Virus record (IMG/VR): IMGVR_UViG_3300046817_000616 | Coordinates: 1-35,620 of that record | Source of the DNA: a virus | Length of the DNA stretch: 35,620 bases | Reading direction: 5' to 3' (one strand) | Part shown: in pieces, positions 1-35,620 of the stretch | How the letters are laid out: every line of letters starts with the position of its first letter | Numbering within the stretch: the first letter of the stretch is position 1 | Translations under genes and position numbers: made by a program | The notes under the pieces: model-generated | What the model was told of the DNA's origin: nothing | What the model saw: only the letters and a program-made list of their open reading frames with translations | The model's database searches: none

Positions 1-57
1 GTACCCGAACCTGACAGAATAGTTTACCCAACAGCAGTTGCCAACGTTGTAGGGTTT

Positions 58-86
58 GCCCCTGACTTCCGGGTCAGGGGCCTTTT
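58..86 (+). terminator. Rho-independent terminator upstream of the PEP-CTERM gene
   Basis: A perfect 9-bp stem (58-66 with 73-81) with a six-base loop is followed by four T residues at 83-86. It would end rightward transcription from the left of the window and insulates the PEP-CTERM gene, as is common for phage morons. Nothing else is clear in bases 1-57; one frame stops at 20-22 and could be the tail of an upstream gene. Confidence 0.8.
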
Positions 87-91
87 ACGTG

Positions 92-140
92 AGCAGCGGC
101 ATAGGTCTTCTGGGTCTATGCCGCCGCTCAAGTTGAGCGG
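92..140 (+). promoter_or_regulatory. Leader with two mutually exclusive hairpins before the PEP-CTERM gene
   Basis: Hairpin 1 pairs 92-104 with 116-128 (12 of 13 pairs, 11-base loop). Hairpin 2 pairs 124-130 with 134-140 (7 perfect pairs, 3-base loop). They share bases 124-128, so both cannot form in full at once. Hairpin 2 ends seven bases before the AAGGAG ribosome binding site. The arrangement resembles an attenuator or translational switch. No known riboswitch class was recognised and no good sigma-70 promoter was found here. Confidence 0.5.
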
Positions 141-159
141 TAACCTGAAGGAGAAAGTC

Positions 160-771
160 ATGAAGAGAAAGCTTTCCTTGGTCGCGGGGGCCGTCTTGGC
201 TCTTGCAGCCGCGTCGGCGAACGCAGTTGTCATCTGCAATGCCTGTGCGTACGTCAACGGGCAAGCCGCGACCAACTTGGGTATCCACAACCCGGGTACT
301 TTCGACGGCAGCACGTTCGCCAATTCGACCACCGGCCAGAACGGTGACTTCGACAATACCTGGGTCTTCAGCGTCGATCCGGCCGGGAAGGCCTCACTCG
401 ATGTGATCTTCTTGCCGATCCAGAACATCAGCAACTTCGCAGTACGGTTGTTCGATGTGTCCAGCTTCTCGTGCGGCGCCGCTGGTTCGGGGTGCAGTGC
501 GTTGACGCTGGGTGGCCTTCTGGCAACCAGCACGACGAACCCGACCTACGCTTCAGTACTGGACTTCTTCGGTCCGCTCAAGGGCACCTACGCCTTCGAG
601 GTGACGGGCACGGTCAGCGGTCTGACTGAAGGGCAACCGGCATCCTACGCCGGCAATCTGCAGACGGTGTCGGCGGTTCCGGAGCCCGAGACCTTTGCGC
701 TGTTCGGTGCTGGTCTGGCCACTCTGGCCTGGCTGCAACGGCGTCGCCAGAAGAAGAACCAAGAAGCCTAA
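160..771 (+). CDS. PEP-CTERM sorting domain protein (phage-encoded surface or secreted protein)
   Basis: This is a 203-residue exported protein. Residues 1-22 are a classic Sec signal peptide: MKRK, a hydrophobic core, and an Ala-rich cleavage region near ASANA. The middle is Gly/Ser/Thr/Asn-rich with an F-x-N-T-W segment near 64-68, like the FxDxF-type PEP-CTERM families. The C terminus (173-199) has VPEPETFALFGAG, a short membrane helix and an RRRQKK tail, the full exosortase recognition signal. In bacteria such proteins are processed by EpsH-type exosortases and linked to exopolysaccharide. No exosortase is seen here, so host machinery would be needed. ATG 160 was chosen over the in-frame ATG 118 because AAGGAG sits just upstream and the signal peptide starts there. 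Terminators on both sides mark it as a self-contained cargo gene. A role in surface change or superinfection exclusion is inference. Confidence 0.9.
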   Translation: MKRKLSLVAGAVLALAAASANAVVICNACAYVNGQAATNLGIHNPGTFDGSTFANSTTGQNGDFDNTWVFSVDPAGKASLDVIFLPIQNISNFAVRLFDVSSFSCGAAGSGCSALTLGGLLATSTTNPTYASVLDFFGPLKGTYAFEVTGTVSGLTEGQPASYAGNLQTVSAVPEPETFALFGAGLATLAWLQRRRQKKNQEA

Positions 772-772
772 G

Positions 773-791
773 AACTCGGGCCCGAGTTTTT
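773..791 (+). terminator. Rho-independent terminator after the PEP-CTERM gene
   Basis: A 16-base perfect palindrome (773-788) can fold as a 6-bp stem with a GGCC loop and runs into five T residues (787-791). It begins two bases after the stop codon, so transcription of the PEP-CTERM gene would end here. Confidence 0.75.
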
Positions 792-802
792 GAGAGGTAA
801 CT

Positions 803-824
803 GACCCCGGCTTCGGCCGGGGTC
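803..824 (+). promoter_or_regulatory. UUCG-capped hairpin before the exonuclease gene
   Basis: A perfect 9-bp stem (803-811 with 816-824) is closed by an extra-stable C(UUCG)G tetraloop. No T tract follows, so it is not a standard terminator. It lies just before the AAAGGA ribosome binding site of the exonuclease gene and may stabilise the mRNA 5' end or mark a processing site. Confidence 0.55.
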
Positions 825-838
825 TTCAAAGGACAAAG

Positions 839-1393
839 ATGCTTGAAGTAGTATTTGACTTTGAGTCAAAGGAAATAGAGAATAGACCAAAATACCCGCC
901 GGAACCGGTAGGTCTAGCTCTTCATATTACTGAAGGGTTCATGAAGCAAACCAAGTATTATGCTTGGGGACATCCGGAAGGCAACAACTGCACAGAGGAA
1001 GACGCCAAATATGTCACGTGGACCCTCCTCCAAGATCCCATCACTTTCTGGATCGCCCACAACACGGCCTTCGACGCATCTATCATCGAAGAGAAGTGGG
1101 AACTCGCATTTCCTTATGACAGAAGCGCGGATACAATGCTTCTGGCATTTCTCCATAATCCATACGGCGAGCTGTCCCTTAAGCCGCTCGCAGCGAAGCA
1201 CCTCGGTCTTCCGCCTGAAGAACAGGACGCAGTACAGCAATGGCTTATCACCCACGGCGTGGTGCGAAGCAATGACAAGCAATGGGGTGCCCACATTTCT
1301 AAGGCACCTGCTCAGGTTGTTGGACCGTACGCAATCGGTGACTGTATCCGCTGCAAGGGTCTCTTCGACTTCTACCGGGCAGTAGGTGTATGA
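839..1393 (+). CDS. Stand-alone 3'-5' exonuclease (DnaQ-like, DEDDy; polymerase proofreading domain)
   Basis: This 184-residue protein holds the three motifs of DEDDy exonucleases. Exo I is FDFES with Asp7 and Glu9, Exo II is AHNTAFDAS with Asp79, and Exo III is YAIGD with Tyr164 and Asp168. These four acidic residues bind two metal ions that cleave the 3' terminal nucleotide. The domain corresponds to the proofreading part of family A polymerases. The stop codon overlaps the polymerase start as ATGA, so translation is coupled and the two proteins probably work together. A single fused protein is usual in T7-like phages; here it is split. ATG 839 has AAAGGA in front. Confidence in the fold is high; the physical complex is inference. 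Confidence 0.88.
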   Translation: MLEVVFDFESKEIENRPKYPPEPVGLALHITEGFMKQTKYYAWGHPEGNNCTEEDAKYVTWTLLQDPITFWIAHNTAFDASIIEEKWELAFPYDRSADTMLLAFLHNPYGELSLKPLAAKHLGLPPEEQDAVQQWLITHGVVRSNDKQWGAHISKAPAQVVGPYAIGDCIRCKGLFDFYRAVGV

Positions 1394-2619
1394 ACCCAGA
1401 ACAACTTGAATACAAGCTCATGCCGGTGATCAACCGGATGGAGCGTCGCGGCATCAACCTGAATGGCCCCCTTCTCAAAGCTGACACCGACTTCTATTGG
1501 ATGAAGCTCGAGGAAGTCGACGAAGAGATATGGCGAATTCTGGGAAAGCAGGTTGACATTGATAGCAATGAAGATCTTGCCAATGCACTTGAAGCTGCAG
1601 GCAAGTCTAAGGGCTTTCTCAAGACGCCAAAAGGAAGGCGTTCGGTCTCCAAAGAATCATTGACCCAGGCGATTGGTGACGATGAACTACTTTGCAACCT
1701 CCTCATTCGCTCAGCCCTCGGTACCTCACTTCGGACGTTCATGCAGCCATGGGTCGTCCAGTATGATCGGCATGGTCGGCTATTTCTTCGATGGAATCAG
1801 TTCCGTAACTACTCGGATACAGGTGCTAGAACAGGGCGGCTCTCGTCGAGCCCGAACCTACAGAATATCCCAGTTGAGTGGGAAGAGCTCCGTGACACTT
1901 TCAAGCGGCTCGGGTACACCCCCGCTTTCGAGTTACCATCTATACGACAGTATATCATACCCGATCCAGGTATGGTGTTCGTGGGGGGTGACTACAAAGC
2001 GCAGGAGATGCGACTACTGGCACACTTCTCACAAGGAGTCCTTCTCGAGTCGGTACGGGCTCAACCCGATGCCGACATTCATGAAGTTGCTGCAAAGATT
2101 GCAGGCGTTACACGTCGTGTCGCTAAGACACTCGGTTTCGCGGTCCTCTATGGTGCAGGCGTCGGCAGGATTGCGGAATCACTCAACATTGGCGTTGCGG
2201 ATGCGGCTCGCATCAAAGAGCAATATCTCCGCGCCTTGCCCGACATCAAGAGGTTTCAGAAAGCGCAGACAGATATTGGGAAATCGGGCGGCTATGTCGA
2301 GACTTTGAATGGTCGCAAGTACTACACCGATCCGACCATTAAGGTAATCAACGGCCGAGTAGTTGAGTTCAGCTACAAACTAGTCAACTACAAGATTCAA
2401 GGTTCAGCAGCCGACCAGACTAAGCTAGCTATGGTCGACTATGACGATATGGACGAAGGCGAGCTAGTCCTATCAGTGCATGATCAGCTCGTATCACAAG
2501 TGCCAATCGGCACATCCAGCGACAAACTTGTTAAGGCGATGGCAGGTTCGTTCCAGGATGTCCTTCGTTACCAGGTAACGGTGGATCCATCAACTGGCTA
2601 CAACTTTGCGGAGCTTTAA
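1390..2619 (+). CDS. Family A DNA polymerase, polymerase domain only
   Basis: This 409-residue protein is the replicative polymerase of the phage. It carries the TGRLSSSPNLQNIP block (148-161), motif A GGDYKAQEMR with catalytic Asp201, motif B RRVAKTLGFAVLYG (242-255) with Arg242, Lys246, Phe250 and Tyr254, and motif C VHDQ with His364 and Asp365. Motif C normally reads HDE; here the Glu is Gln366. The Asp that binds metal is kept, so activity is expected. Phe250 matches the Phe of E. coli Pol I at the sugar-selectivity site. There is no exonuclease domain; it is supplied by the upstream overlapping gene. The length matches the palm, fingers and thumb of Klenow-type enzymes. Confidence 0.95.
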   Translation: MNPEQLEYKLMPVINRMERRGINLNGPLLKADTDFYWMKLEEVDEEIWRILGKQVDIDSNEDLANALEAAGKSKGFLKTPKGRRSVSKESLTQAIGDDELLCNLLIRSALGTSLRTFMQPWVVQYDRHGRLFLRWNQFRNYSDTGARTGRLSSSPNLQNIPVEWEELRDTFKRLGYTPAFELPSIRQYIIPDPGMVFVGGDYKAQEMRLLAHFSQGVLLESVRAQPDADIHEVAAKIAGVTRRVAKTLGFAVLYGAGVGRIAESLNIGVADAARIKEQYLRALPDIKRFQKAQTDIGKSGGYVETLNGRKYYTDPTIKVINGRVVEFSYKLVNYKIQGSAADQTKLAMVDYDDMDEGELVLSVHDQLVSQVPIGTSSDKLVKAMAGSFQDVLRYQVTVDPSTGYNFAEL

Positions 2620-3281
2620 TGTACACAGAACCCTGGGGTTTTTCCAAACTCGACACCTTTCAGCAATGCAAGAAGCGCTTCTTCTTCCAGTATGTTCAGA
2701 AGTTGCCATCGCCATCAAATGCGGCAATGGAACGTGGAGGCAAGATCCATGAGACCATCGAATCCTACTTACAGGGTTGGATCACCTCTATGCCGGAAGA
2801 TCAGGTACCGGCAGTCTGGAAGCCTCGGCTGGATGAGCTCAAAGCTATGCCAAACTTCACTTCTGAGCAAGCCATCGGTCTTGATAAGAACTGGCGGCCA
2901 CTTAAGGACTGGTTCCAAAAGGAAACCTGGCTTCGTGCCAAGATGGATGCGAAGTCAACACCCCGTCCAGAGCACCTTTCAGTGGTGGACTTCAAGACAG
3001 GCAAATACCGCGTACCATCTGATGAGCAGATAGAGCTGTACGCCATTGTCGGCCAAGCACAACACCCAGAAGTGGAAGTAGCTACGGCGGAGTTCTGGTT
3101 CATAGATCTTGACGATGTCTATAGTAAGACATTTCAAGGTCCGGCGCTCTTGGCACTTCGGAAGAAGTATGAGAATCTTGCAGATCAAATCTACAAAACG
3201 GAGGTGTGGATCGAAGAACCAAGTCGTGAGTGCAAGTGGTGTCCCTACTCCAAGTCAAGGGGTGGGCCATGCAAGTTCTAG
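2619..3281 (+). CDS. PD-(D/E)XK exonuclease with probable Fe-S cluster (Cas4/RecB-like)
   Basis: This 220-residue protein has the layout of Cas4, AddB and related phage nucleases. The N terminus has FSKLDTFQQCKKRF with Cys17, then GGKIHETIE with His44. The catalytic core is Asp110, then VVDFKTGK with Asp124 and Lys126, then the QIELYA helix with Gln137 and Tyr141. The C terminus has C-x2-C-x9-C (Cys205, Cys208, Cys218). Together with Cys17 these four residues are the standard ligands of a 4Fe-4S cluster that staples the fold. It probably trims DNA ends during replication or recombination. The ATG overlaps the polymerase stop by one base (TAATG), giving tight coupling. Confidence 0.88.
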   Translation: MYTEPWGFSKLDTFQQCKKRFFFQYVQKLPSPSNAAMERGGKIHETIESYLQGWITSMPEDQVPAVWKPRLDELKAMPNFTSEQAIGLDKNWRPLKDWFQKETWLRAKMDAKSTPRPEHLSVVDFKTGKYRVPSDEQIELYAIVGQAQHPEVEVATAEFWFIDLDDVYSKTFQGPALLALRKKYENLADQIYKTEVWIEEPSRECKWCPYSKSRGGPCKF

Positions 3282-3583
3282 AGTCGGAGATTGAAAGAAA
3301 ATGCACAACAATAGCGGCGAAGCACCGATGTATCCTGCTGAAGGTCGAGAAGCGGAAGGGGTGGCCCGACCGAATCTTGATGTGCCCGAACGGGCAGATG
3401 GCCTGGCTCGAGTTCAAGCGGCCGGGGGAGATGCCGACGAAGTTCCAGGAACACATTCACATGGAACTGCGAGCGATGAATTTCAGAGTCTACGTGGTGG
3501 ACAACTATTCGGAGTTCATGACGGCACTTCTATTGTTGAAGGGTTTGGACCACCCACCTGGATCCCCGTTAACTACCAAGTGA
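3269..3583 (+). CDS. VRR-NUC domain nuclease
   Basis: This protein has about 104 residues. It has the VRR-NUC signature of GWPDR (31-35), a beta strand ending LEFKRPG with Glu48 and Lys50, and a following KFQ helix with Gln60. The family is a PD-(D/E)XK-type nuclease found in phages next to helicases and in Fan1. ATG 3269 was chosen over 3230 because it follows AAGGGG at a good distance and leaves only 13 bases of overlap with the previous gene. The end of this gene overlaps the SNF2-like frame, and the two may act as one nuclease-translocase unit. See the findings for a possible frameshift. Confidence 0.82.
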   Translation: MQVLESEIERKCTTIAAKHRCILLKVEKRKGWPDRILMCPNGQMAWLEFKRPGEMPTKFQEHIHMELRAMNFRVYVVDNYSEFMTALLLLKGLDHPPGSPLTTK

Positions 3584-4914
3584 GAGGTGTAGAATGGCTA
3601 AGCGAGCGTCCTGGCTCGGCCCTCTTTCTGAAACCCGGCTCTGGCAAGACCTCAGTAGTTCTTGCCTCGGCCCTTCGCGTGCAAGACATATGGAAGAAGC
3701 GCGCAAGAATGCTGGTGATCGCCCCCCTGACAGTGGCAGTGACCACGTGGATGGCGGAACCCAAGAAGTGGAAACAGTTTTCTGGCCTAAAGGTGGGATT
3801 AGCACGGGGCCCGGAACGGGAGTCCATCCTCCAAGACGTTACGCTCGACGTAGTCGTTACTAACTACGACGCCCTTGAATGGGCCGCGCCGATCCTAATG
3901 CAAGGGCACAACTTCGACATTCTTTGTGCCGATGAAATCACACGCTTGAAACATATTCAATCAAAGAGATTCAAGCGTTTGAAGCCATTGCTGCCGACGT
4001 TCAAGTATCGGTGGGGCCTTACGGGCACGCCAGCCGCCAATGGCTTGCTGGACCTCTTCGGGCAGATCATGGTTCTAGACTACGGTCAGCGATTGGGTCG
4101 GTTCATTACCCATTTTCGCATGACGTACTTCTACCAGAAGCCTTGGGATCAGTACCGCTTCTATATTAGCGATCAGATGGCGACCAAGCTGATAGAGAAG
4201 ATCAGCGACATCTGCATGTACCTGGACAACGACGAGGAGATGGAACTTCCTCCCTTGATCGATGTACTCCGGCAGGCCCCCTTCAACCAGGCAGTGAAGA
4301 AGCAGTATGACGAGCTCGAGGAAGAGTTCATCTTGCGTCTTGAAACCGGTCTAGTAACGGCAGCCAATGCGGGGGTGCTCACCAGCAAGCTGCGACAGTT
4401 CACTGGTGGGGGTATATACTCGAGTTCAGCTGATCGCTCTTGGTCCGAAGTACATAGAACAAAGATCGAGCTCCTTGATGATCTGGTCGAGGAGCTTGCA
4501 GGGGAGCCACTGATGGTGGCATATCAGTTCGAGCACGAGTTCGAGCGTTTGACCAAGGAGTATCCCAAAGCCTTGTACATCAAAGGAGGAATGTCAAAGA
4601 AACAGTTGCAAGAGACAGTGGAACAATGGAACACAGGCGATCACCCCCTTATGCTCGTTCAACCTTCGGCGGCAGCGCTGGGTTTGAATTTGCAGTTCGG
4701 TGGTAGCAACGTTGCGTGGTATACCTTGACCTACAATTTGGAGGAATATATCCAGTTGATAGCACGGTTGCTGCGCAAAGGCCAAACCAAGACGGTCATG
4801 AACTACATCCTTGCGGTGGAGAAGACGATCGACGCGGTAGTAGCAAAGGTGCTGGTCGAGAAGAACATAACACAAGATAAGGTCTTTGAAGCGCTCCAAG
4901 GACTCAAAGTGTAA
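3580..4914 (+). CDS. SNF2-like superfamily 2 DNA-dependent ATPase/helicase
   Basis: From GTG 3580 this is 444 residues. It has Walker A PGSGKT (3634-3651), motif II CADE (3925-3936), motif III LTGTP near 4018-4032, and motif VI QLIARLLRKGQ near 4753-4785. These are the two RecA-like lobes of SNF2-type DNA translocases. GTG 3580 forms a GTGA overlap with the VRR-NUC stop, like several other pairs in this genome. However, the same frame is open from 3301, and just upstream of 3580 it reads WIPVNYQ, continuing into VRGVEWL. That looks like the conserved Q motif, and it would be lost with the GTG start. No good in-frame start lies between 3403 and 3580. The true N terminus may therefore come from a long overlap (ATG 3301) or from frameshifting. 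Confidence 0.85.
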   Translation: MRGVEWLSERPGSALFLKPGSGKTSVVLASALRVQDIWKKRARMLVIAPLTVAVTTWMAEPKKWKQFSGLKVGLARGPERESILQDVTLDVVVTNYDALEWAAPILMQGHNFDILCADEITRLKHIQSKRFKRLKPLLPTFKYRWGLTGTPAANGLLDLFGQIMVLDYGQRLGRFITHFRMTYFYQKPWDQYRFYISDQMATKLIEKISDICMYLDNDEEMELPPLIDVLRQAPFNQAVKKQYDELEEEFILRLETGLVTAANAGVLTSKLRQFTGGGIYSSSADRSWSEVHRTKIELLDDLVEELAGEPLMVAYQFEHEFERLTKEYPKALYIKGGMSKKQLQETVEQWNTGDHPLMLVQPSAAALGLNLQFGGSNVAWYTLTYNLEEYIQLIARLLRKGQTKTVMNYILAVEKTIDAVVAKVLVEKNITQDKVFEALQGLKV

Positions 4915-8391: not shown

Positions 8392-10515
8392 CTAAGCTGT
8401 ACGGATGTAGAGACAAATGTTGCCGCCAGCACTAATGCAACCAAGGTTACGCCAAGTACCAGCATTGATAGTAGTATTAGTGCCTGCACCAGCGGTAAGG
8501 ACAGTCATCAAGTTCGTGGTGCCATTAGCAACAATGGTACCTAGTGCATTGACAATAACACCAGCAGTAACGCTAGCCATGACGATACCACCAACAGGGA
8601 TACCGGATCCTGGTGCTGCGCCAGGGTCTCTAGCGATCATCAGACCACGATAGTCAGTGATCGGGGCACCGACGCCGGCTGTAGCTGATACCTCACTGAC
8701 AGTCAGTAGTGCCAGGTTGTAGGTATGATTTAGGACTTGGAAGTCATCTGCACAAGCACGCAGATATTTATCTGGTTTTGACTGCGCACCATTGTTGCCA
8801 TGCATCTTGAAGTTTGCACCAGCAGCACCGGTATCGTTGAGCACCAGTGAACCGTTGCTCGTTGCAGTTCCTGTGATCTGCACTCCGCCTGTGGTAGTAG
8901 TTAGCGTAATAAGTGGGGAGGTGACGATTACTGATACTGTGCCAGAACCTTGACCGCCAGTTGCACGCAGCCACTCAGTAGCTGCACCAGCATTGTCACT
9001 GATCCAGAGCCCGTAGAGTGCCGTTGCGTCCTTGTACCACTCATGGCACCGGTTGTTGGCACTAGCTGTAAAGTTGCAAACACCAAGTGCAACGTTGTAC
9101 AAGTACGACTGTGATTCAGTGACACTGCCCGACCATGGACGTCCTGCACCAATGACTTGAATAGCAGACGCAGGGAACCGAATTCCAAGACCACCACTTG
9201 GTGCAATCGTGGGGTTACCACCTGCCGAGCCTGCAACAGCAAGATAGTTCGTAGCTCCAGCAACATGTGAAACTACGAACTGCGCGCCACCACCAGTAAA
9301 GAAGGCATGTACGCCGTTGCCTTTGGAGAAGTGGTTAAACTGGATGTTTGCATCCCCGCCTTCGACTGAGAGATTTGGACCAGTGCCTGTTATAGCCTGT
9401 GTCATTTGAACGTAGTTCACTGCGCTGGCAAGCCTAACCAGCTTCAGCATGTACGCGCCACCTGACGTGAAGTCAATGTTGCCGGTATTTGCAGTGGAAA
9501 GACCCCATGTAACCATGGCACTACCAAGACCACTTGGTATGCCGAAGGTCCCAGCAGCAGACGCAGTACCTGGATTAATGTAGTAGTTCAGGGCATAGGC
9601 GTTTGCACCACTAACGAAGTCGCTCGATGCACCAAGTATGCCATTGACTTGCGTCGTGCCATTGATTGTAGTGGTACCATTGATGACATGGCCACCAGAC
9701 GTAGGCGTGACGAATGTCACCCCACCTGTAGCTGCTATATCTACACGCTTGGTTGCATTGGTAAAAAGACCAAGCGCAAGCGCTGTGTTACCGCCAATGA
9801 CATTAGCAGTATTACTCGTTGCTACTTGCAGTAGAACCTGCGAGTAAGCATTGTTGAGCATGCGGATAGTTGATGCATTGACAGCAGCATTGCCCACTAG
9901 ATCAGTTGCAAAGCCGTCAACATTTGAAAAGAAGACGGTTGTAGGTACACCAGTACCTACTGCTGCATTTACCCGCAATGTGCCATTGATATCAATGTGC
10001 ACGCGCTGCAAACCACCAGTAGCGAAGCCTAGGTCGTCAGCACCTATCGAGTACATCCCCGTATTGGGATCGGCAGTGAAGCTATACGACGGAAGAAGAG
10101 CTGTACCGGCTGCAGCAAGGAGTTGACCAGTAAACGTCGTTGCACCAGTGACAGTGAACGTCCCACCTACTGTGTAGTTCCCTGAGACGGCGAAGTCACC
10201 GGTGATACCTGCACCAGTAGTATCCCAAGTCTGCCGAGACACCCCCGCCACAGACATCCCCACAGTGTTGGGTGATAGCCGATATAGGCCAGAAGATGGC
10301 GACGTGGAGAAGGCGATGCCTGGTAGCGCAACTGTGCCATTGACGAACAACACCGGCTGAGTTGGGCCAAGTAGGCCATCTCGCGTAAGGACGTTGTTCA
10401 GTTGGACCGCAAGGTCCGCCATCGTGTCATTAGCCCAGTCGGCTTCAATGACAGTGCCGCTGACGACCGGATTCCCGGTCGGGAGGGTATAAGCACCTGC
10501 TGAGTCGCGCGGCAT
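8392..10515 (-). CDS. Tail fibre protein
   Basis: From ATG 10515 this is 707 residues. The N-terminal MPRDSAGAYTLPTGNPVVSG, followed by VIEADWANDTMADLAVQLN, is the typical virion-attachment start of podovirus fibres. The body is rich in Gly, Thr, Ala and Asn. It has fibre repeats such as STSPSSGLYRLSPNTVGMSV and TADPNTGMYSIGADDLGF, and a long beta-helical stretch of TTT-INGT type. The C terminus (GTWRNLGCISAGGNICLY) probably forms the host-contacting tip. It likely trimerises and determines host range. An in-frame ATG at 10578 exists but lies inside the preceding gene; ATG 10515 follows that gene's stop directly and has AAGGGA upstream. Confidence 0.85.
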   Translation of the reverse strand: MPRDSAGAYTLPTGNPVVSGTVIEADWANDTMADLAVQLNNVLTRDGLLGPTQPVLFVNGTVALPGIAFSTSPSSGLYRLSPNTVGMSVAGVSRQTWDTTGAGITGDFAVSGNYTVGGTFTVTGATTFTGQLLAAAGTALLPSYSFTADPNTGMYSIGADDLGFATGGLQRVHIDINGTLRVNAAVGTGVPTTVFFSNVDGFATDLVGNAAVNASTIRMLNNAYSQVLLQVATSNTANVIGGNTALALGLFTNATKRVDIAATGGVTFVTPTSGGHVINGTTTINGTTQVNGILGASSDFVSGANAYALNYYINPGTASAAGTFGIPSGLGSAMVTWGLSTANTGNIDFTSGGAYMLKLVRLASAVNYVQMTQAITGTGPNLSVEGGDANIQFNHFSKGNGVHAFFTGGGAQFVVSHVAGATNYLAVAGSAGGNPTIAPSGGLGIRFPASAIQVIGAGRPWSGSVTESQSYLYNVALGVCNFTASANNRCHEWYKDATALYGLWISDNAGAATEWLRATGGQGSGTVSVIVTSPLITLTTTTGGVQITGTATSNGSLVLNDTGAAGANFKMHGNNGAQSKPDKYLRACADDFQVLNHTYNLALLTVSEVSATAGVGAPITDYRGLMIARDPGAAPGSGIPVGGIVMASVTAGVIVNALGTIVANGTTNLMTVLTAGAGTNTTINAGTWRNLGCISAGGNICLYIRTA

Positions 10516-10516
10516 G

Positions 10517-12193
10517 TTAGTATCCCTTGGATGGTTTGTCCGGCACCGTTGTAGGCAGATCAGCACCTGCACGAGCACCGAAAGTACCTGCTTGTTCTAT
10601 AGAGAACTTGAGCATCTGTTCAGTGGTTGTCAGCGGTAGATTGGCCGCTACCTTGTTCTTGACGTTATCCACCATGTTCATGAACTTGTCAGGATCCAGT
10701 AGCGCTTCGTCAACGGCCTTCGTGGTCTTGTCCCGATTGGCACTGACCATCTGATTGAAGAGTGCTCGTGCTTTCCAGATCTTTGACGAGTTGAACTTGA
10801 TCGAAGCAGCATTCAACCCTGCTGATACACCTTGATTAAGCAAGCTGGTAGTATCAGGCGTAGTAGCACCAACACCTTGCGGAACCACACTACGCTGACC
10901 TAGGTCATCAGCTAGTTTGACAAACGCATCACGCTCTACATCACTCAGGTGAGGCGAGAGTTCACCAAGTGCCTTGCGCAATGGGCGCGCCGTAATCACC
11001 GGTACAGCATCCGCCCCCTTACCGAAGGTTTGTTTGGTCTGAGGGATGTCGTTCCGCATGAACCGCATCCTCAGAGCATCGCCGGCCTCTGTCTTGAAGC
11101 GATCTGGTATGTCATTGAGCACGTCCCAGGCACTACGTGCTACGTGCTCATCATGTGCGGCAAAATCGCCCCCTAGTGACCTGTTACGAGCACCTCGTTC
11201 AAGTGCTCCGAGGGGGGCCGATTCGGCCATTGTTGCAGTGGTGTGGGGAATCACTGATGGATCGGCGTTTGTCATGGCGCGGTACGCATCCATGATGTTC
11301 TCTTCGCCTATCGTGTTCTTGATTGCATCGTAGGCCTTCTTCTCCAGAGCAGTCGCCCCCTCAGCGAGCTTCGGAGCTAGCTTGTTTCCGATCCAAGAAC
11401 CTGCTTGAATAGGCAAAGCAACAAGCTTCATCAGTAATGGCGCACCGACAGCACCTAAGCCCATGCCTCTAGCTACATCGTCAGCCCGATCAGCCAGTGT
11501 CTTGTCTGAACTCTCACCGACTAGGCCGGCAGACGTACCACCTTGCACTGCGCCCTTCGCAGCATTACCAAGGTTGAGATACTTCCCACCGACTTTGCCG
11601 AGCTCAAGGGCCTTAGGGAGGAACCGGCCGAGTGCAGCTTTCCCGAGACCCTCTACACCAGCAGCTTCTGGTCCTGTGGCAAGCGCTTCACCACCAATCT
11701 CACCAAGTGTACCCCAGCCGCCGAGGGGACCTTTGATCTTGTCCCATTCCTGGCGTTCGTCAAGTTCCTTTGGCGAAGCTTGGCCGAAGAGGTCCTTCAT
11801 GCCTGCTACACTGGACATTAGTCCACCAAACCCACCAACGGCGAGCTTCTCGCCTGGACCCATGCCCTTTGCGGGGCTGTACCGCTGTTTGTCAGCGGCT
11901 CGCATGTCATCGATCTCTTTCTGAGTTGGGGCTCTAGACCGTGGTGGCGGTGTAGGTTGCGGCAGTGGCGCTGGTGGCGGAGGAGGTGCTGCGGTAGGGC
12001 CAGGCGTTGGCGGCGGTACAGGCGTACCTGGCATAGGCGAAGGTAGATCCTGTACCTCGCTACGGAAGTCATTAGCACGACGCATCATGTCAGGACGAAT
12101 CTTCGTCTTGAACAGCATGGCTGCTTCTGTGTCATCCTTGGCCTCGAATTGACCAGAACGACCATCAGATAGCTGAAATGGATAGACAGGCAT
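10517..12193 (-). CDS. Large virion protein, probable ejection (internal) protein
   Basis: This 558-residue protein starts with MPVYPFQLSDGRSGQFEA, a common N-terminal module of phage and plasmid structural proteins. A proline-rich linker follows (about 50-95). The centre is Gly/Ala-rich with weakly hydrophobic helices (for example GLMSSVAGMKDLFG and VGAPLLMKLVALP). The rest is long helices (KFMNMVDNVKNKVAANLP). Podoviruses carry three such proteins between the tail and fibre genes that enter the cell with the DNA. TAGGAG precedes the ATG. The assignment rests on position and composition, not on a recognised family. Confidence 0.7.
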   Translation of the reverse strand: MPVYPFQLSDGRSGQFEAKDDTEAAMLFKTKIRPDMMRRANDFRSEVQDLPSPMPGTPVPPPTPGPTAAPPPPPAPLPQPTPPPRSRAPTQKEIDDMRAADKQRYSPAKGMGPGEKLAVGGFGGLMSSVAGMKDLFGQASPKELDERQEWDKIKGPLGGWGTLGEIGGEALATGPEAAGVEGLGKAALGRFLPKALELGKVGGKYLNLGNAAKGAVQGGTSAGLVGESSDKTLADRADDVARGMGLGAVGAPLLMKLVALPIQAGSWIGNKLAPKLAEGATALEKKAYDAIKNTIGEENIMDAYRAMTNADPSVIPHTTATMAESAPLGALERGARNRSLGGDFAAHDEHVARSAWDVLNDIPDRFKTEAGDALRMRFMRNDIPQTKQTFGKGADAVPVITARPLRKALGELSPHLSDVERDAFVKLADDLGQRSVVPQGVGATTPDTTSLLNQGVSAGLNAASIKFNSSKIWKARALFNQMVSANRDKTTKAVDEALLDPDKFMNMVDNVKNKVAANLPLTTTEQMLKFSIEQAGTFGARAGADLPTTVPDKPSKGY

Positions 12194-21239: not shown

Positions 21240-22220
21240 TTACTCGGTCATGATCCCCTGGAATTGAAGACCGCACGAGGTGAGGTTACCGGCCCAGGCC
21301 AGGATCTGCACGGCGGCGTCCTGGTTCACCGAGTAGCGTTGACCCGGCGACAGTGGCACCATGTTGCGGTCACGGTGCGGACGGTACTTGAGGTACTTCG
21401 TGTTCAAGAAGTACGCCGTGCTGGCCGGATCGAAGCCGCCGATACCACCGTCGAGGCACACATCGGCGTCCATGAACTTGACAGTGACGAAGCCGAGCTT
21501 CGCCGTGTTCGAGTCCGTGAAGCGCTGAATGGCCTGCAGCGAGGCCATGTAGAAGCCCCAGTAGTTGTTGTCGACCATGATCAGGTCGGGGCGATCGTTG
21601 CCGCGGACGCACTTGGCCCAGAGCCGGTTGAAGTAGCTCTGGATGTTCGCCGCCGTGGTTGCCGCGCCGCCAGTCGCAACAGCTGCGAACACCTGATTGC
21701 GCCAGAACGTCCACGAAACCCGGTCGATGCCGCCAGGCGTGCCTGACGTCGGAACCGCGATGACCTGCTTCTGGAGACCGTCGATCTGCTTGCCACCCGC
21801 GGCCGTGCCGTCCGAGTACAGACCCTGCGCGATCAGGTTGGCCATGGAGGCCTCGCCGACGTTGACACGGGCCTCGAGCAGGTCGATGATCTGTTCCCGA
21901 CCGCTGTTCTGCAGTTGGTCGAGGCCGGAGATGGTCACCGGGCAGGCCGCCTGCTTGATGTCGTACTGCGCAGCGCTGATGACGTCCTGTGCCGCGATGG
22001 GCAGCAGGTCATAGCCAGCGTACCAACCGGCATTGCCGTTGGCCTGGAACGAGAGCTCTTCCAAGATCACGTTGCCGCCCCCGAACGGCTTGATGTTCCC
22101 CTTTTCCTTGAGGCGCATCAAGAGCGCATTGTTCTTGGTGACGTTGTCGGCGATGGTGCCGGTACGCGACTGGATCGTTGTCGCGATGATGTCGCTGATC
22201 GCTGAATTGGCAAATGCCAC
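21240..22220 (-). CDS. Major capsid protein (HK97-like fold)
   Basis: This 326-residue protein has features of podovirus capsid proteins: a helical N terminus (SAISDIIATTIQSRTG) followed by NALLMRLKEKGNIKPFGGG, a LEELSF E-loop start, DIKQAACPVTISGLD, a long helix, the RPDLIMVDNNYWGFYMASL segment, and an ending with LNTKYLKYRPHRDRN and LAWAGNLTSCGLQFQG. It forms the icosahedral shell. The start is GTG with AGGAG six bases upstream. It follows a scaffold-like gene and a tiny basic gene. Confidence 0.88.
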   Translation of the reverse strand: MAFANSAISDIIATTIQSRTGTIADNVTKNNALLMRLKEKGNIKPFGGGNVILEELSFQANGNAGWYAGYDLLPIAAQDVISAAQYDIKQAACPVTISGLDQLQNSGREQIIDLLEARVNVGEASMANLIAQGLYSDGTAAGGKQIDGLQKQVIAVPTSGTPGGIDRVSWTFWRNQVFAAVATGGAATTAANIQSYFNRLWAKCVRGNDRPDLIMVDNNYWGFYMASLQAIQRFTDSNTAKLGFVTVKFMDADVCLDGGIGGFDPASTAYFLNTKYLKYRPHRDRNMVPLSPGQRYSVNQDAAVQILAWAGNLTSCGLQFQGIMTE

Positions 22221-23686: not shown

Positions 23687-23980
23687 TCAGTATCCCTTCT
23701 GGTTCATGACTCGGATGATGTCTTCCCGGATTTGCTTCCGATCCGGCGCCACAGGCTGCACTCCCATTGGAAGACCAGCCAGTTCTTGAGTTGGAACAAC
23801 GTCATGACGCCTACAGTGATCACGTATGCCAGCACGGCCTCTAACAATTGTCTTGTCGATAGGCGAAATGAAGTCAGGGCTATCTGGAATGACAAATGGG
23901 CCCACATTAGCCTTGCTTGAGCTAGGCTCGGTGCCTTTTTCATAGGCTACTCCATTGATGTAGACCCAGCACTTTCTCAC
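23687..23980 (-). CDS. Conserved small head-cluster protein
   Basis: This 97-residue protein has WVYINGVAYEKGTEP, DFISPIDKTIVRGRAGIRDH and a basic C-terminal helix (RKQIREDIIRVMNQKGY). This arrangement is found next to portal genes in many podoviruses. No function is established. The GTG start forms a GTGA overlap with the portal stop, and AGGAG lies seven bases upstream. Confidence 0.75.
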   Translation of the reverse strand: MRKCWVYINGVAYEKGTEPSSSKANVGPFVIPDSPDFISPIDKTIVRGRAGIRDHCRRHDVVPTQELAGLPMGVQPVAPDRKQIREDIIRVMNQKGY

Positions 23981-26418
23981 TTTCTAGCTCCTGCAGCTGG
24001 TTTGGGCTTCGCACGAGCCATTGCGCGCATGTTTTGGACCTTCGCAGCGCCTTGTTCTTGCATTTGGCGAGTCTTGACGAGGCCCTCTGTATGCGCCTGC
24101 ATTAGCTGCATATGGCCCTGCATGCGAGCTTGTTCCATCTTTGCTGCACTTTCGTGCAACATCATCTGAATCTTCAGTTGTTGCTCCTGTTGGAACATCG
24201 TGTTCTCCATTTGGAGCTTCTGCATCTCCATCTGGAGCTCTTGACGACCCTGGGTGTCAGCCAACTGCATTTCTTGCTGCTTCGCTTGCAGTTTGAGCTG
24301 AGTTTCTTGCTGTTTGGCCTGCATCTTAGCTTGCAATTCTTGAATCCGCATTGCATGCTCTTGCTGAGACTGCTGCATCTCCTGTTTGGCCTTCTCTGCC
24401 TCAGGATCAGGCTTATCCTCTGGAGGCTGCTTGATCAAGTCATCGAGGGCTTTGTCGAGCATCCCCTCAATATCTCGTGCATTCTTGAACCCGGCGATCG
24501 CCCACTTGAGTATACCCACCAGAAGGGGGGCCGCCTGCGGTTGACTCTGGATCATGCCTCCGGCTGTCTCAAGATAGCCAGACACAGAGGTAAGGAGTTC
24601 GATCCTATCCGCCTTTTCCATGGCGTAGTCGGTTTGGGCAATCTGGTCGGCAGTGACCACAATGCGCCATTCGAACCCCTCTTCAGACTGTAGAAGCTCG
24701 ACGGCTTCCTGAGCGAGGTCCGCATCATCTGTCCGCATAATATTACTCTTGCGGATGATGATTTCCGGGTCAAAGTGCTTAACCTGTATCTCGGCTTTAA
24801 TCCGTAGGAGTTCAGCAGCAAAACGCGCAACCTCGTCCTGAGTGTCTTTGATACGGACCGACGCAAACTTAGCCTTGATTTCCTGTGCACCCAGCGTTTC
24901 AGATGCCTTAGAAGCACCCCGGACAATATCTGCAATGCCAGTAATTTCATAGATCTGGGCCTTGATCCCCTCCCGCGCTTCATAAAGACGCTGGAGCGCA
25001 TTCACAACCTGCTCGAGGGGCAGCCAATCGACCTGGCCCTTGACTCCACCCTTCTCAGCGAACATTGCCCAGTTATCAACTGGAATCAGGGTGTTATCTG
25101 TGCCTTCCAACAGCATTCGCTGAATGCCAGTCGCAGATTGGTCGTAGACGCCGACGACCTTGCATGCTTTGATAAGCATGCTAATGCGGTTGTTGACCTG
25201 ATCGAGTTCGTTGTACTGATCCTGGGTCAAATAGTAATCAGGACGAGGAACGGTGTTAGACGTCGAGATATTGGCCAGGAGAGGACGCGGGCAAGGCTCG
25301 AACCCGACCAGATTCAGGAAATCATCCTTCGAATCCAGGATTTCTGGTTCGTCTTTGCACAACCAGATAACCTTCCGATGAATACGGTCCCAGATCTCGT
25401 AGATCTTCGCCATCTGGATGGCCTGGTTCTGGGGAACCACTCCACCCGGATAGGTATTCAGATTGATGTTCGAGGGACGATGGTTCAGGGGTACCTTTTC
25501 ACCCTTTTCTTTGCCGAACCGCTTTATCAGCTGCGGACGGTCCATATACACCACGCGACCTACCCAACGGCGCTCTTCCCAAACTCTGCAAGGAGACCAC
25601 AGGAAGTCTTCCCAGTAAATGTAGTCAATGGCTACACGCTGGTCTGTGATCCGCTTGTACTTTATGGAAACCGGCGCCGGAGGGGGTGCGACTGGCGCGG
25701 CGGCAGCTGGCGGTTGTCCCGGAGATCCTTGAGGAGGAGCCATGGGAGGCATACCAGCACCACCAGGAGCCCCAGGCATCCCGCCAGGCTGAGGAGGAGC
25801 AGCCCCGGGACCGCCAGGAGGAGCTTCCATGCCGGGTAAGGCTTGTTGTCCTTCATCCGGGGCTGGTCCAGTCTTGAAACCGGAGTATAGTGGGGCGTTG
25901 TGGTGATCATTTTGGCCTTCCAGGCCCTCGCCGACAGACTGAATCTGTCCCTCAAGGATCAATTCGGCATCTTCAGTGTCAGTTTCAAGACGACACCATG
26001 CTTGACCGAGTCCGCTGACGAGACGATCAAGTGCGACATGTCGCATTGTGGGATCGAAAAGGTCCCTAGGATCGTCTCCATCGGGGGATATAGCCCGTTG
26101 TAAGATATTGGCTGCAACCCGCGCGAGTTGATCGTTATAATCAATGAACTTTCTTGTGACCTCAGGTTTTGGTAGTTGGGCATAGAGCGCCGCCTTCATG
26201 ATTTTCGTGTTGGCGTAGAACAAGTTGAACCACTTGTTCGGTGCATCCAGGGCATCGCGCTCGTCTACGAACCTACGGACGCATTGACGCGCCCGCTCAT
26301 GGAACTTCTTCAGCTCCTGTTCAGCGTAAGCAATCTCGGTAATCCAGAGTTCGCGCGGAGTGAGTTTCCGGGCGTCAACAATGGTTGGGGAACCCGACAT
26401 CGGGGTGTCAGAGATCAC
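23977..26418 (-). CDS. Portal protein (P22-like, 813 residues)
   Basis: The N-terminal part has the large-portal pattern of FHERARQCVRRFVDER (39-54) and LFYANTKIMKAALYAQLPKP (66-85). The core has DYIYWEDFLWSPCRVWEERR and the tunnel-proximal LTQDQYNELDQVNNRI. The C terminus (about 665-813) is a Gln/Met/Lys-rich coiled coil resembling the long barrel of P22 portal. A Pro/Gly-rich tract fills residues about 183-250 within the wing. It forms the dodecameric DNA channel and docks the terminase. The GTG start overlaps the terminase stop as GTGA, with AGGAG upstream. Confidence 0.9.
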   Translation of the reverse strand: MISDTPMSGSPTIVDARKLTPRELWITEIAYAEQELKKFHERARQCVRRFVDERDALDAPNKWFNLFYANTKIMKAALYAQLPKPEVTRKFIDYNDQLARVAANILQRAISPDGDDPRDLFDPTMRHVALDRLVSGLGQAWCRLETDTEDAELILEGQIQSVGEGLEGQNDHHNAPLYSGFKTGPAPDEGQQALPGMEAPPGGPGAAPPQPGGMPGAPGGAGMPPMAPPQGSPGQPPAAAAPVAPPPAPVSIKYKRITDQRVAIDYIYWEDFLWSPCRVWEERRWVGRVVYMDRPQLIKRFGKEKGEKVPLNHRPSNINLNTYPGGVVPQNQAIQMAKIYEIWDRIHRKVIWLCKDEPEILDSKDDFLNLVGFEPCPRPLLANISTSNTVPRPDYYLTQDQYNELDQVNNRISMLIKACKVVGVYDQSATGIQRMLLEGTDNTLIPVDNWAMFAEKGGVKGQVDWLPLEQVVNALQRLYEAREGIKAQIYEITGIADIVRGASKASETLGAQEIKAKFASVRIKDTQDEVARFAAELLRIKAEIQVKHFDPEIIIRKSNIMRTDDADLAQEAVELLQSEEGFEWRIVVTADQIAQTDYAMEKADRIELLTSVSGYLETAGGMIQSQPQAAPLLVGILKWAIAGFKNARDIEGMLDKALDDLIKQPPEDKPDPEAEKAKQEMQQSQQEHAMRIQELQAKMQAKQQETQLKLQAKQQEMQLADTQGRQELQMEMQKLQMENTMFQQEQQLKIQMMLHESAAKMEQARMQGHMQLMQAHTEGLVKTRQMQEQGAAKVQNMRAMARAKPKPAAGARK

Positions 26419-27749
26419 AGAATTCTCCTATTCCCGAGCATGTTCGTACGATCTGCATGCAGATCGTCAAGATTGAAGGCATAGTTCCAACCGGAGCTCA
26501 CGGGTTCCGCCGTGGTCTTCGTTGTCACTGTCTTGTACTTCTGATGCGCGACTACACACATGTATCCGAAACTATCTGCGTAGTCAGAGCACCAATCGTG
26601 GAGGGGGACATCGCTAAAGATGAGATGCTTGTCGTCCCAGACTCTTCTGTATCCTTTGAGAGCCTCAATGAGGTCTTCGCAAGCAGCATCTTCGAACGCA
26701 ATAAGAGGAAAGAGGCGACGTGTTGCGGCAATACGATCACGCACCTTGTGGTTCGGGACGAGTCGCGGCCTAATTCCTTCTTTAAGAAATTGCTCAACAA
26801 GCGAACGGCCCGTCTGGAGATTCTTGGCCCTGGCGTCATGGGGGAGCCAGACATCGCCAATCTCTCCTGAGAAAGTATGGATCTTCTCGATATGGTGAAA
26901 GATGTCTTTGCCTTGGGTTGACTCGACATGGACAATCCGCACTGGCAAGTCGCCCCGTGAGTAAGGTCCTTCTTGCCAAAAGATGGCAACGGTTGCATCT
27001 GTGAATCCCAGATCAAAGACAACGTGTGTTTGAAGGTTTGGGTCGTACAGGTTCGCTTTGATTTGTCCATGTAGGAACGCATCATTGAGCTCATCAGCGT
27101 AGATTGCGCCTTTCAATGCCGAATCGAAGCTACACAGGTACTCCTGTGCAAACTCCTCTGGGTCCATGTGCTTGCGGAGTTGCTCTAATTCTCCACGTGG
27201 GATGATTCCTGAAGTATCAGCACGTAGTTCGAGGAAGAACCAATCGGGATCAACCCGGGCCTCTTTAACAACCTGGTAAAACAGGTTCTTGCCCCGAGGG
27301 GTGGATGCGAACACGAACCAACCATTCCTGTCCGATAGAGTCGGACGAATGACCTGTGGGAACACGGAAGGCCGAAATAGTGCATACTCGTCGCCAACAC
27401 CGCCATCAAGATACATTCCTCGCAGGGCGTCGGCATTGTCCGCTCCCAGGACATATAGAGTTCTGTCTCCATGGAGGGTAACCTTGAGCTCAGCTTCCTG
27501 AGGGGGCCGTGACATGTACGGCTCGGCGTAGTCCTTCAGGTAAGTCCATGCGACGCGCTTCGCCTGCGCGTATGTTGGGCCAATATAGGCCAGTTGGGGC
27601 TTGTACAGCTCGCATTCCAGAGCCCCGAAGACAAGGTCGTTCACCAGAGCGACGGTCTTCCCTGCGCGCCGGTGGGTGTTCATGGCACCCCAGCGCTGCT
27701 TGCGATTGTGAAACGCTACGAACTGTTCCCGAGGGACGTACTTAAGCAT
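26415..27749 (-). CDS. terL: Terminase large subunit
   Basis: This 444-residue protein is the packaging motor. The ATPase half has Walker A HRRAGKT (26-32), Walker B GGVGDE with Asp120 and Glu121, and the coupling segment FASTPRGKN (147-155). The RNase H-like nuclease half has VFDLGFTDA with Asp246, WLPHDARAK with Asp305, and a third acidic cluster in the CSDYADSF segment near the end. All key residues are present. It overlaps the preceding gene as TAATG and the portal gene as GTGA. Confidence 0.94.
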   Translation of the reverse strand: MLKYVPREQFVAFHNRKQRWGAMNTHRRAGKTVALVNDLVFGALECELYKPQLAYIGPTYAQAKRVAWTYLKDYAEPYMSRPPQEAELKVTLHGDRTLYVLGADNADALRGMYLDGGVGDEYALFRPSVFPQVIRPTLSDRNGWFVFASTPRGKNLFYQVVKEARVDPDWFFLELRADTSGIIPRGELEQLRKHMDPEEFAQEYLCSFDSALKGAIYADELNDAFLHGQIKANLYDPNLQTHVVFDLGFTDATVAIFWQEGPYSRGDLPVRIVHVESTQGKDIFHHIEKIHTFSGEIGDVWLPHDARAKNLQTGRSLVEQFLKEGIRPRLVPNHKVRDRIAATRRLFPLIAFEDAACEDLIEALKGYRRVWDDKHLIFSDVPLHDWCSDYADSFGYMCVVAHQKYKTVTTKTTAEPVSSGWNYAFNLDDLHADRTNMLGNRRIL

Positions 27750-34970: not shown

Positions 34971-35620
34971 TTGGCCACATTTCTTTTTGCCGCACCTGCC
35001 CCAGCTCCCTGGGATAAAGAATCTGTTGAGTTCATGGAATATGACCTAAGTAGGTCAGTCCTAATTCCTACTGATCTTGGCGCATATCCAATCGCTAAGA
35101 CCAAGTATAGTGCGCCCGCCTACTGCATACCTTATACAGGTAATGACAACCTCTGGCGTTGCCGCATCAATCGAGAAGAAAATAAGTACATCTCCACACC
35201 TGGTGCCACACCAGATTTGTGGCTCCCCCCTGGCACAGATCTTCTTGAGATGTATGAAGGTGACTTATACATCATAGAAGGTGAAAAGAAAGCTGCTGCA
35301 GTTTACAAACACTGGAATCTAGCCTCAGTTGTAGGTATAGGAGGATGCTGGAACGCAGTACGCAAAAGCGAGAAGAACGAAAGCTATAGCTTAATCGATA
35401 AGCTACAGCTTTTGATACAACCAGGACGCACAGTACATGTGATTCTGGATGGGGATGTAATAGAGAATAAGAATGTTGGACGAGCAGCACTGACACTGCA
35501 GTCTTGCATTGAGGCATTGAATGCGACTATGCATCTGTACACCCCACCAGTAGAATGGAAGGGGGTGGACGATTGGATCTTTCAAGATAAAGATGCAGTC
35601 CCAGGTCGCTTAGTTCTAGT
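34971..35620 (+). CDS. Primase-like protein (DUF3854/Toprim-type), truncated by the window end
   Basis: The open frame runs to the end of the window, giving at least 216 residues. It has FMEYDLSRSVLIPTDLGAYP, then KTKYSAPAYCIPY, then the Toprim-like core YIIEGEKKAAAV with the metal-binding Glu, GIGGCWNAV, and VILDGDV with acidic residues. These are hallmarks of phage primase-helicase proteins with a DUF3854 domain. TTG 34971 gives a good N terminus (MATFLFAAPAPAPWD if initiated with Met) but lacks a clear ribosome binding site; ATG 35034 is an alternative. A helicase part may follow beyond the window. Confidence 0.75.
   Translation, partial: MATFLFAAPAPAPWDKESVEFMEYDLSRSVLIPTDLGAYPIAKTKYSAPAYCIPYTGNDNLWRCRINREENKYISTPGATPDLWLPPGTDLLEMYEGDLYIIEGEKKAAAVYKHWNLASVVGIGGCWNAVRKSEKNESYSLIDKLQLLIQPGRTVHVILDGDVIENKNVGRAALTLQSCIEALNATMHLYTPPVEWKGVDDWIFQDKDAVPGRLVL

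Follow-up and report, generated by a model that had tools for sequence, protein, structure and literature searches.

What would a phage gain from encoding a protein that carries a bacterial surface-sorting signal? The question is raised by a gene at one end of the window, the whole 35,620-nt stretch of DNA analysed here, which is a linear IMG/VR contig and stands as L001 among the loci that we compared. The earlier note on this DNA had read from the gene a signal peptide, a VPEPETFALF motif, a membrane helix and an Arg-rich tail, and had proposed a search against PEP-CTERM profiles. That search bears the reading out: the protein scores over the curated cut-offs of PF07589 in Pfam (27.9 bits on residues 172-195 against a cut-off of 20.7, E 2.3e-6), of TIGR02595 (20.5 bits against 16) and, in NCBIfam, of NF038126, the FxDxF family PEP-CTERM profile (74.2 bits against 50 on residues 17-196, E 1.4e-20), and these scores are far above chance. 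VPEPETFALF occupies residues 173-182, with a hydrophobic stretch after it and then the basic RRRQKK, whose RRR is at residues 194-196, and the PEP motif is kept in 14 of 14 family A proteins, the family to which we assign this one. Judged by sequence and conservation, the signal peptide of the window protein consists of MKRK, a hydrophobic core and A-N-A at residues 20-22 followed directly by V. We consider it confirmed, at the level of sequence, that the product of this phage gene bears a signal peptide at one end and the complete PEP-CTERM signal at the other. The coordinates of these and the other features are collected in Table 1; the spacing from the AAGGAG ribosome-binding site to the ATG is 6 nt.

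Table 1. Coordinates of the PEP-CTERM gene, its leader and its genomic surroundings in the window, and of leader hairpins in other loci (locus name before the colon).
Feature	Position	Strand	Basis or remark
Last codons (YPNLTE, stop) of SSB-like gene	2-22	+	Aligns with PYPNLNSDN (L022) and PYPQLE (L015)
CCAACAGCAGTTGCC, identical in sister phage G008/L022 at the equivalent place	28-42	+	Exact match
Terminator-like hairpin (58-81) and T run, upstream of gene	58-86	+	Scan and fold
Leader hairpin type 1, apex RTCTYNYGGGT, covarying stem	96-124	+	Both partners differ at 5 of 12 pairs, three phages
Second small inverted repeat of leader, CGCTCAAGTTGAGCG	125-139	+	Sequence and fold; similar repeats in L022 and L059
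Ribosome-binding site AAGGAG	148-153	+	Sequence
PEP-CTERM gene, family A, 203 aa	160-771	+	ORF and profile matches
Signal peptide, residues 1-22	160-225	+	Sequence; all 14 homologues keep A20 and A22
Mature ectodomain, predicted beta-sandwich, invariant C26, C29, C105, C112	226-672	+	Alignment, predicted structure
PEP-CTERM sorting signal (VPEP, membrane helix, RRR)	673-747	+	PF07589 and TIGR02595 over cut-off
Two terminator-like hairpins after gene (769-792, 803-824)	769-830	+	Fold z-score -3.71
Polymerase 3'-5' exonuclease gene	839-1393	+	PF01612, 22 bits, just under cut-off of 23.6
DNA polymerase A gene	1390-2619	+	PF00476, E 7.4e-54
PD-(D/E)XK nuclease gene	2619-3281	+	PF12705, E 7.4e-18
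SNF2-type helicase gene	3301-4914	+	PF00176 and PF00271
Tail fibre gene	8392-10578	-	Residues 139-629 match G001/G002 fibres
Major head protein gene	21240-22220	-	phrog_9953, E 8e-108
Portal gene	23977-26418	-	phrog_12082
Terminase large subunit gene	26415-27749	-	phrog_2
Second hairpin type, before PEP-CTERM genes	L025:1908-1933	-	Pattern match
Second hairpin type, before PEP-CTERM genes	L026:2939-2965; L030:2102-2124; L031:3390-3416; L049:9512-9540		Pattern match
Second hairpin type, before PEP-CTERM genes	L050:10187-10210; L060:5988-6014; L062:6033-6059		Pattern match

The predicted structure of family A combines a beta-sandwich and a C-terminal helix (mean pLDDT 68.7), and four cysteines (C26, C29, C105 and C112) are invariant across the alignment. 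By TM-score the top solved-structure match is 5sv5, a collagenase pre-peptidase C-terminal domain (TMt 0.73), and the structure matches are beta-sandwiches with low to moderate TM scores. We rejected functional readings drawn from the other beta-sandwich matches, including a clostridial toxin binding domain, as likenesses at fold level only. As modelled, family A may resemble a small binding domain more than it does an enzyme. The NF038126 match indicates a relationship between family A and a bacterial PEP-CTERM family.

The earlier note called the protein phage-encoded and named a host-phage assembly chimera as the finding that would speak against this. A chimera and host contamination are both ruled out by the following: (i) the last codons of an SSB-like gene lie at bases 2-22, so that there are phage genes on both sides; (ii) a second contig, L002, is 97.2% identical to the window over 8.6 kb and also has the family A gene; and (iii) in G008 the same slot between the SSB-like gene and the exonuclease gene holds a PEP-CTERM gene of a second family, B. 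Synteny with the window extends over the whole of G008 (38.7 kb), whose capsid is 94%, terminase 82% and polymerase 76% identical; the look at the equivalent place in related phages that had also been proposed thus turns up a PEP-CTERM gene, of the other family. Among 44 loci, CCAACAGCAGTTGCC has an exact match in the window and in L022 only. In 13 more distant relatives (polymerase 55-67% identical) the slot is empty, the exonuclease gene following the SSB-like gene without a PEP-CTERM gene between them; the family A gene was therefore probably added in the window's clade. L004 and L005, which are near the window, begin downstream of the gene and are uninformative on its presence.

Terminator-like hairpins lie on either side of the gene, and the exonuclease and DNA polymerase A genes come directly after it, in agreement with the description of the gene as sitting between two terminators and next to polymerase genes. 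On the minus strand are the genes for the major head protein, portal and terminase, which are phage hallmarks, and those for tail and fibre. The position of the cassette in the replication half suggests that it is expressed early; no good match to a sigma-70 or sigma-54 promoter was found before the gene, and its independent transcription is putative. With its variable presence between conserved phage genes and its own terminator-like hairpins, the gene has the marks of a 'moron'-type gene. At the other end of the window (34983-35620) is the start of a DUF3854 (primase-like) gene, which in the relatives L008 and L015 precedes the exonuclease gene by about 5 kb. The window therefore lacks a few kb of the genome, which is probably circularly permuted. 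No second PEP-CTERM gene was detected in the window with the A and B profiles, some kb between its end and its start being missing.

The leaders of these genes are structured. The type 1 hairpin lies about 35 nt before the start codon in the window, G008 and G007, and in the 3.05 Mb scanned (both strands counted) it occurs only in these three and in L002. Most other lineages have a hairpin of a second type, placed before the first PEP-CTERM gene of a pair or, in L050, before the A gene; 8 of its 11 distinct pattern matches are directly before a PEP-CTERM gene. Its stem covaries (4 of 8 pairs), with a covariation score that none of 500 shuffles reached, and a covariance model of the hairpin and its flank up to the start codon gave no other match better than E = 0.08. 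The pyrimidine loop of the second hairpin is complementary to the ribosome-binding site, so that a pseudoknot could form. We regard this hairpin as a candidate regulatory RNA; RNA family searches with the leaders gave nothing near a curated score for a known family.

How widely are such genes carried by phages? When 2.9 million viral contigs were scanned by pattern for tails of the VPEPE[TS][FY]AL type, 21 contigs matched, most with family A, family B or both, and profile scans found A in 20 contigs (the window included) and B in 20. Of the 20 with A, 16 have the B gene next to it on the same strand; as several contigs nearly duplicate one another, the independent cases number about a dozen. 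In the alignment, family A homologues show 53-68% identity, except for L003, which is near-identical. The ectodomain of family B differs from that of A (it has FKADGDGFFDW and FLFATHAQGL), the two profiles cross-match weakly (about 50 bits at most, against more than 200 for full-length members), and B reaches 37.6-43.1 bits with NF038126, under the cut-off of 50. The predicted structure of B (pLDDT 78.4) had no significant structure match, and the viral structure library was uninformative. In L056, one of the 16 contigs with the pair, the family A gene is intact and its family B neighbour (3872-4555) is interrupted by an in-frame stop.

The phages concerned differ in both virion and replication modules. 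The capsid of G007 is 94% identical to that of the window and its replication module is diverged (polymerase 37%); its family B protein, 84% identical to that of G008, is encoded before a DNA-ligase-like gene (named from sequence). In G003-G006 (capsid 61-64%) the early region ends with both A and B, which face the fibre gene. G001 and G002 carry A and B, yet the 40 and 60 kb covered gave no match to the window capsid, portal or terminase. Polymerase, primase-helicase, virion and fibre families are all represented in G001, where the A/B pair lies directly before a DNA polymerase gene. The A proteins of G001 and G002 are the nearest to that of the window (66-68% identity), and among the records compared only their fibres match residues 139-629 of the window fibre (46% and 41%); a later scan of low sensitivity for this region added a close relative, L115 (67%). 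It is possible, on these few cases, that a shared host or receptor lies behind both the common fibre region and the similarity of A. The window fibre is itself a mosaic, its N-terminal part following the virion module and residues 139-629 matching phages with other virion genes.

More distant cases were also found. B-like proteins (33-34% identity) are encoded in two large viral contigs. In L072 (G011, 116 kb) a B-like PEP-CTERM gene at 10001-10690 is followed immediately by an unrelated PEP-CTERM gene that extends to about 11400; the pair layout recurs in this distant viral contig, whose phage nature is putative. Another PEP-CTERM protein, with tandem repeats IQTAYSYSWPKEFV, is encoded at 9668-10087 of L092 (IMGVR_UViG_3300036715_002161, 138 kb) and also in L094. 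Genes for thymidylate synthase and for RNA polymerase beta subunits of phage type also lie on L092, a large phage contig, and we take the L092/L094 gene to be an independent phage-borne case. Apart from these, two loci that differ in phage context (L022:619-852 and L030:1796-2029) encode, ahead of the PEP-CTERM gene, a 78-aa protein, MKMHNPTIGENIDMKIRQAEERLQ, which is 78% identical between them and was found in no other locus compared.

Searches outside this set were largely negative. Neither family was found in 50,697 phage records, so the phage-database search proposed in the earlier note succeeded for uncultivated viral contigs (20 with A) and failed for these records. Family A was not found in plasmids, no PHROG matched A or B, and there was no PADLOC model match. 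Scanned by pattern, 84,980 prokaryote species genomes yielded no relatives of A or B; such scans depend on conserved peptides, and distant bacterial cousins may therefore exist. The isolates nearest by capsid are one Stenotrophomonas and two Myxococcus phages (58-64%), a likeness that is not enough to identify the host. No gene for an exosortase was found in any of 13 phage records, and we infer that sorting would be done by the exosortase of the host.

Two further observations bear on what the proteins do. Firstly, the family A genes of the window and L003 have a pairwise dN/dS of 0.11, other A pairs give 0.15-0.39 and B pairs 0.19-0.41; when only the mature part is counted, the values are 0.08-0.43 (A) and 0.16-0.50 (B), and both ectodomains are therefore under purifying selection. 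Secondly, the sorting tails of A and B are more alike within one phage than between phages (8 dereplicated phages, shuffle p 0.00015). Matched tails of this kind fit a tuning to one host enzyme, though recombination or base composition could contribute to the match or account for it.

We favor the possibility, to which we give a probability of about 0.5, that the gene belongs to an accessory ('moron'-type) cassette that remodels the polysaccharide-protein coat of the infected cell and perhaps excludes other phages. The cassette would comprise the leader RNA hairpin, the ribosome-binding site, the PEP-CTERM gene and the terminators, set in the replication-gene half. The family A protein would be exported by Sec and retained in the inner membrane via its PEP-CTERM tail, the host exosortase would process the tail, and the small beta-sandwich would join the exopolysaccharide or outer-surface layer of the infected cell. 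Export by Sec with exosortase sorting seems to us very probable, and remodelling of the coat by the cassette reasonably so. An effect on the cell surface is plausible, given that PEP-CTERM proteins are known to keep exopolysaccharide attached to cells (PMC9850573, PMC12188702); a cyanobacterial exosortase, for one, is required for adhesion to secreted polysaccharide (PMC12188702). Fewer other phages would adsorb to a remodelled coat, and we rank such superinfection exclusion as the likeliest and most economical benefit, with aggregation of infected cells as its main rival; as a claim in its own right it is tentative.

According to that rival, the protein tethers exopolysaccharide and infected cells stick together in flocs, with the result that progeny are released among new hosts or that infected cells are protected. 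Lytic release normally favours free virions, which weighs against aggregation as a benefit, and we find this reading rather unlikely. The binding-domain-like fold predicted for the family A beta-sandwich would suit it. Precedent for such an effect comes from bacteria, where overexpression of host PepA turned soluble polymer into bound polymer and restored flocs; the effect was seen for only one of several PEP-CTERM genes tested (PMC9850573).

It is also conceivable, and in our view improbable, that the C-terminal helix is an inner-membrane anchor and nothing else, the protein acting in the periplasm, for example against DNA entry by other phages, with no part for an exosortase. A signal peptide and a C-terminal helix are enough for anchoring, and the 13 phage records without an exosortase agree with this idea; however, an anchor needs neither the PEP motif that every family A protein has kept nor tails of A and B that co-vary within a phage. 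That the tail is a decoy, occupying the host exosortase and so halting export of host surface proteins, is very unlikely: the A and B tails do match a common recognition signal, but in several comparisons the rest of the protein is no more conserved than the ectodomain (mature dN/dS 0.08-0.16), and a pure decoy has no need of such conservation. We give still less credence to a virion component, such as a decoration protein, that resembles PEP-CTERM proteins by chance; it would be phage-encoded, as observed, but the gene lies among replication genes, on the other strand from the virion genes, is passed among phages whose virion modules are unrelated and has both export and sorting signals. Finally, the location at the contig end and the higher G+C (0.61 for the gene, 0.54 for the window) would suit an assembly chimera or a captured, useless host gene, a reading already contradicted by the phage codons at 2-22, the second contig and the use of the same site in G008, to which can be added homologues in about 20 viral contigs, purifying selection and the failure to find a close bacterial relative.

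Returning to remodelling of the infected cell's coat, the phage genes for surface-tagged proteins, often in adjacent pairs, suggest that the virus redecorates the cell that it infects. More broadly, we lean towards the view that several unrelated phage lineages carry a phage-specific module of two exosortase substrates with structured leader RNAs, through which the host exosortase would install a viral coat.

PEP-CTERM proteins and envelope-directed phage genes are each already known, and the families described here can be set against both. The window protein is like the bacterial NF038126 family in signal peptide and tail design and scores over its cut-off; family A differs in residing in phage genomes, paired with B and with a leader of its own, and no close bacterial relative was found. 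PepA (NF033554) shares the sorting signal, and the Aquincola pepA gene also has a terminator-like hairpin after it (PMC9850573), but the window protein scores 28.3 bits against a cut-off of 80, mainly through its tail, and is not a member; host pepA also has a sigma-54 site, and none like it was found before the phage gene. Envelope-directed moron proteins that act in superinfection exclusion, such as P22 SieA (PMC10883804), are likewise accessory, variably present and encoded between phage genes. Unlike these, the window protein, with its putative function, would use the exosortase route, and its family pairs with another PEP-CTERM family. Proteins of the TIGR03118 type, bearing a putative exosortase-interaction domain, have been listed among hot-spring virus genes acquired by transfer (PMC11003980). 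These too are virus-borne with a possible exosortase signal, but they belong to another family, and the one sentence on them, unlike our analysis of A and B, gives no pair, site conservation or selection analysis. Within the full text of 5.39 million open papers we found no report of a phage-borne pair of PEP-CTERM substrates, that sentence on hot-spring viruses being the nearest.

Exosortase sorting has so far been studied as a bacterial route to exopolysaccharide coats and flocs. If phages supply substrates of their own, the exosortase system becomes contested ground between phage and host, and, if our model is true, a new route for phage takeover of the bacterial surface. Families A and B would also provide small, phage-selected proteins for probing exosortase specificity, and the question is directly testable in floc-forming strains.
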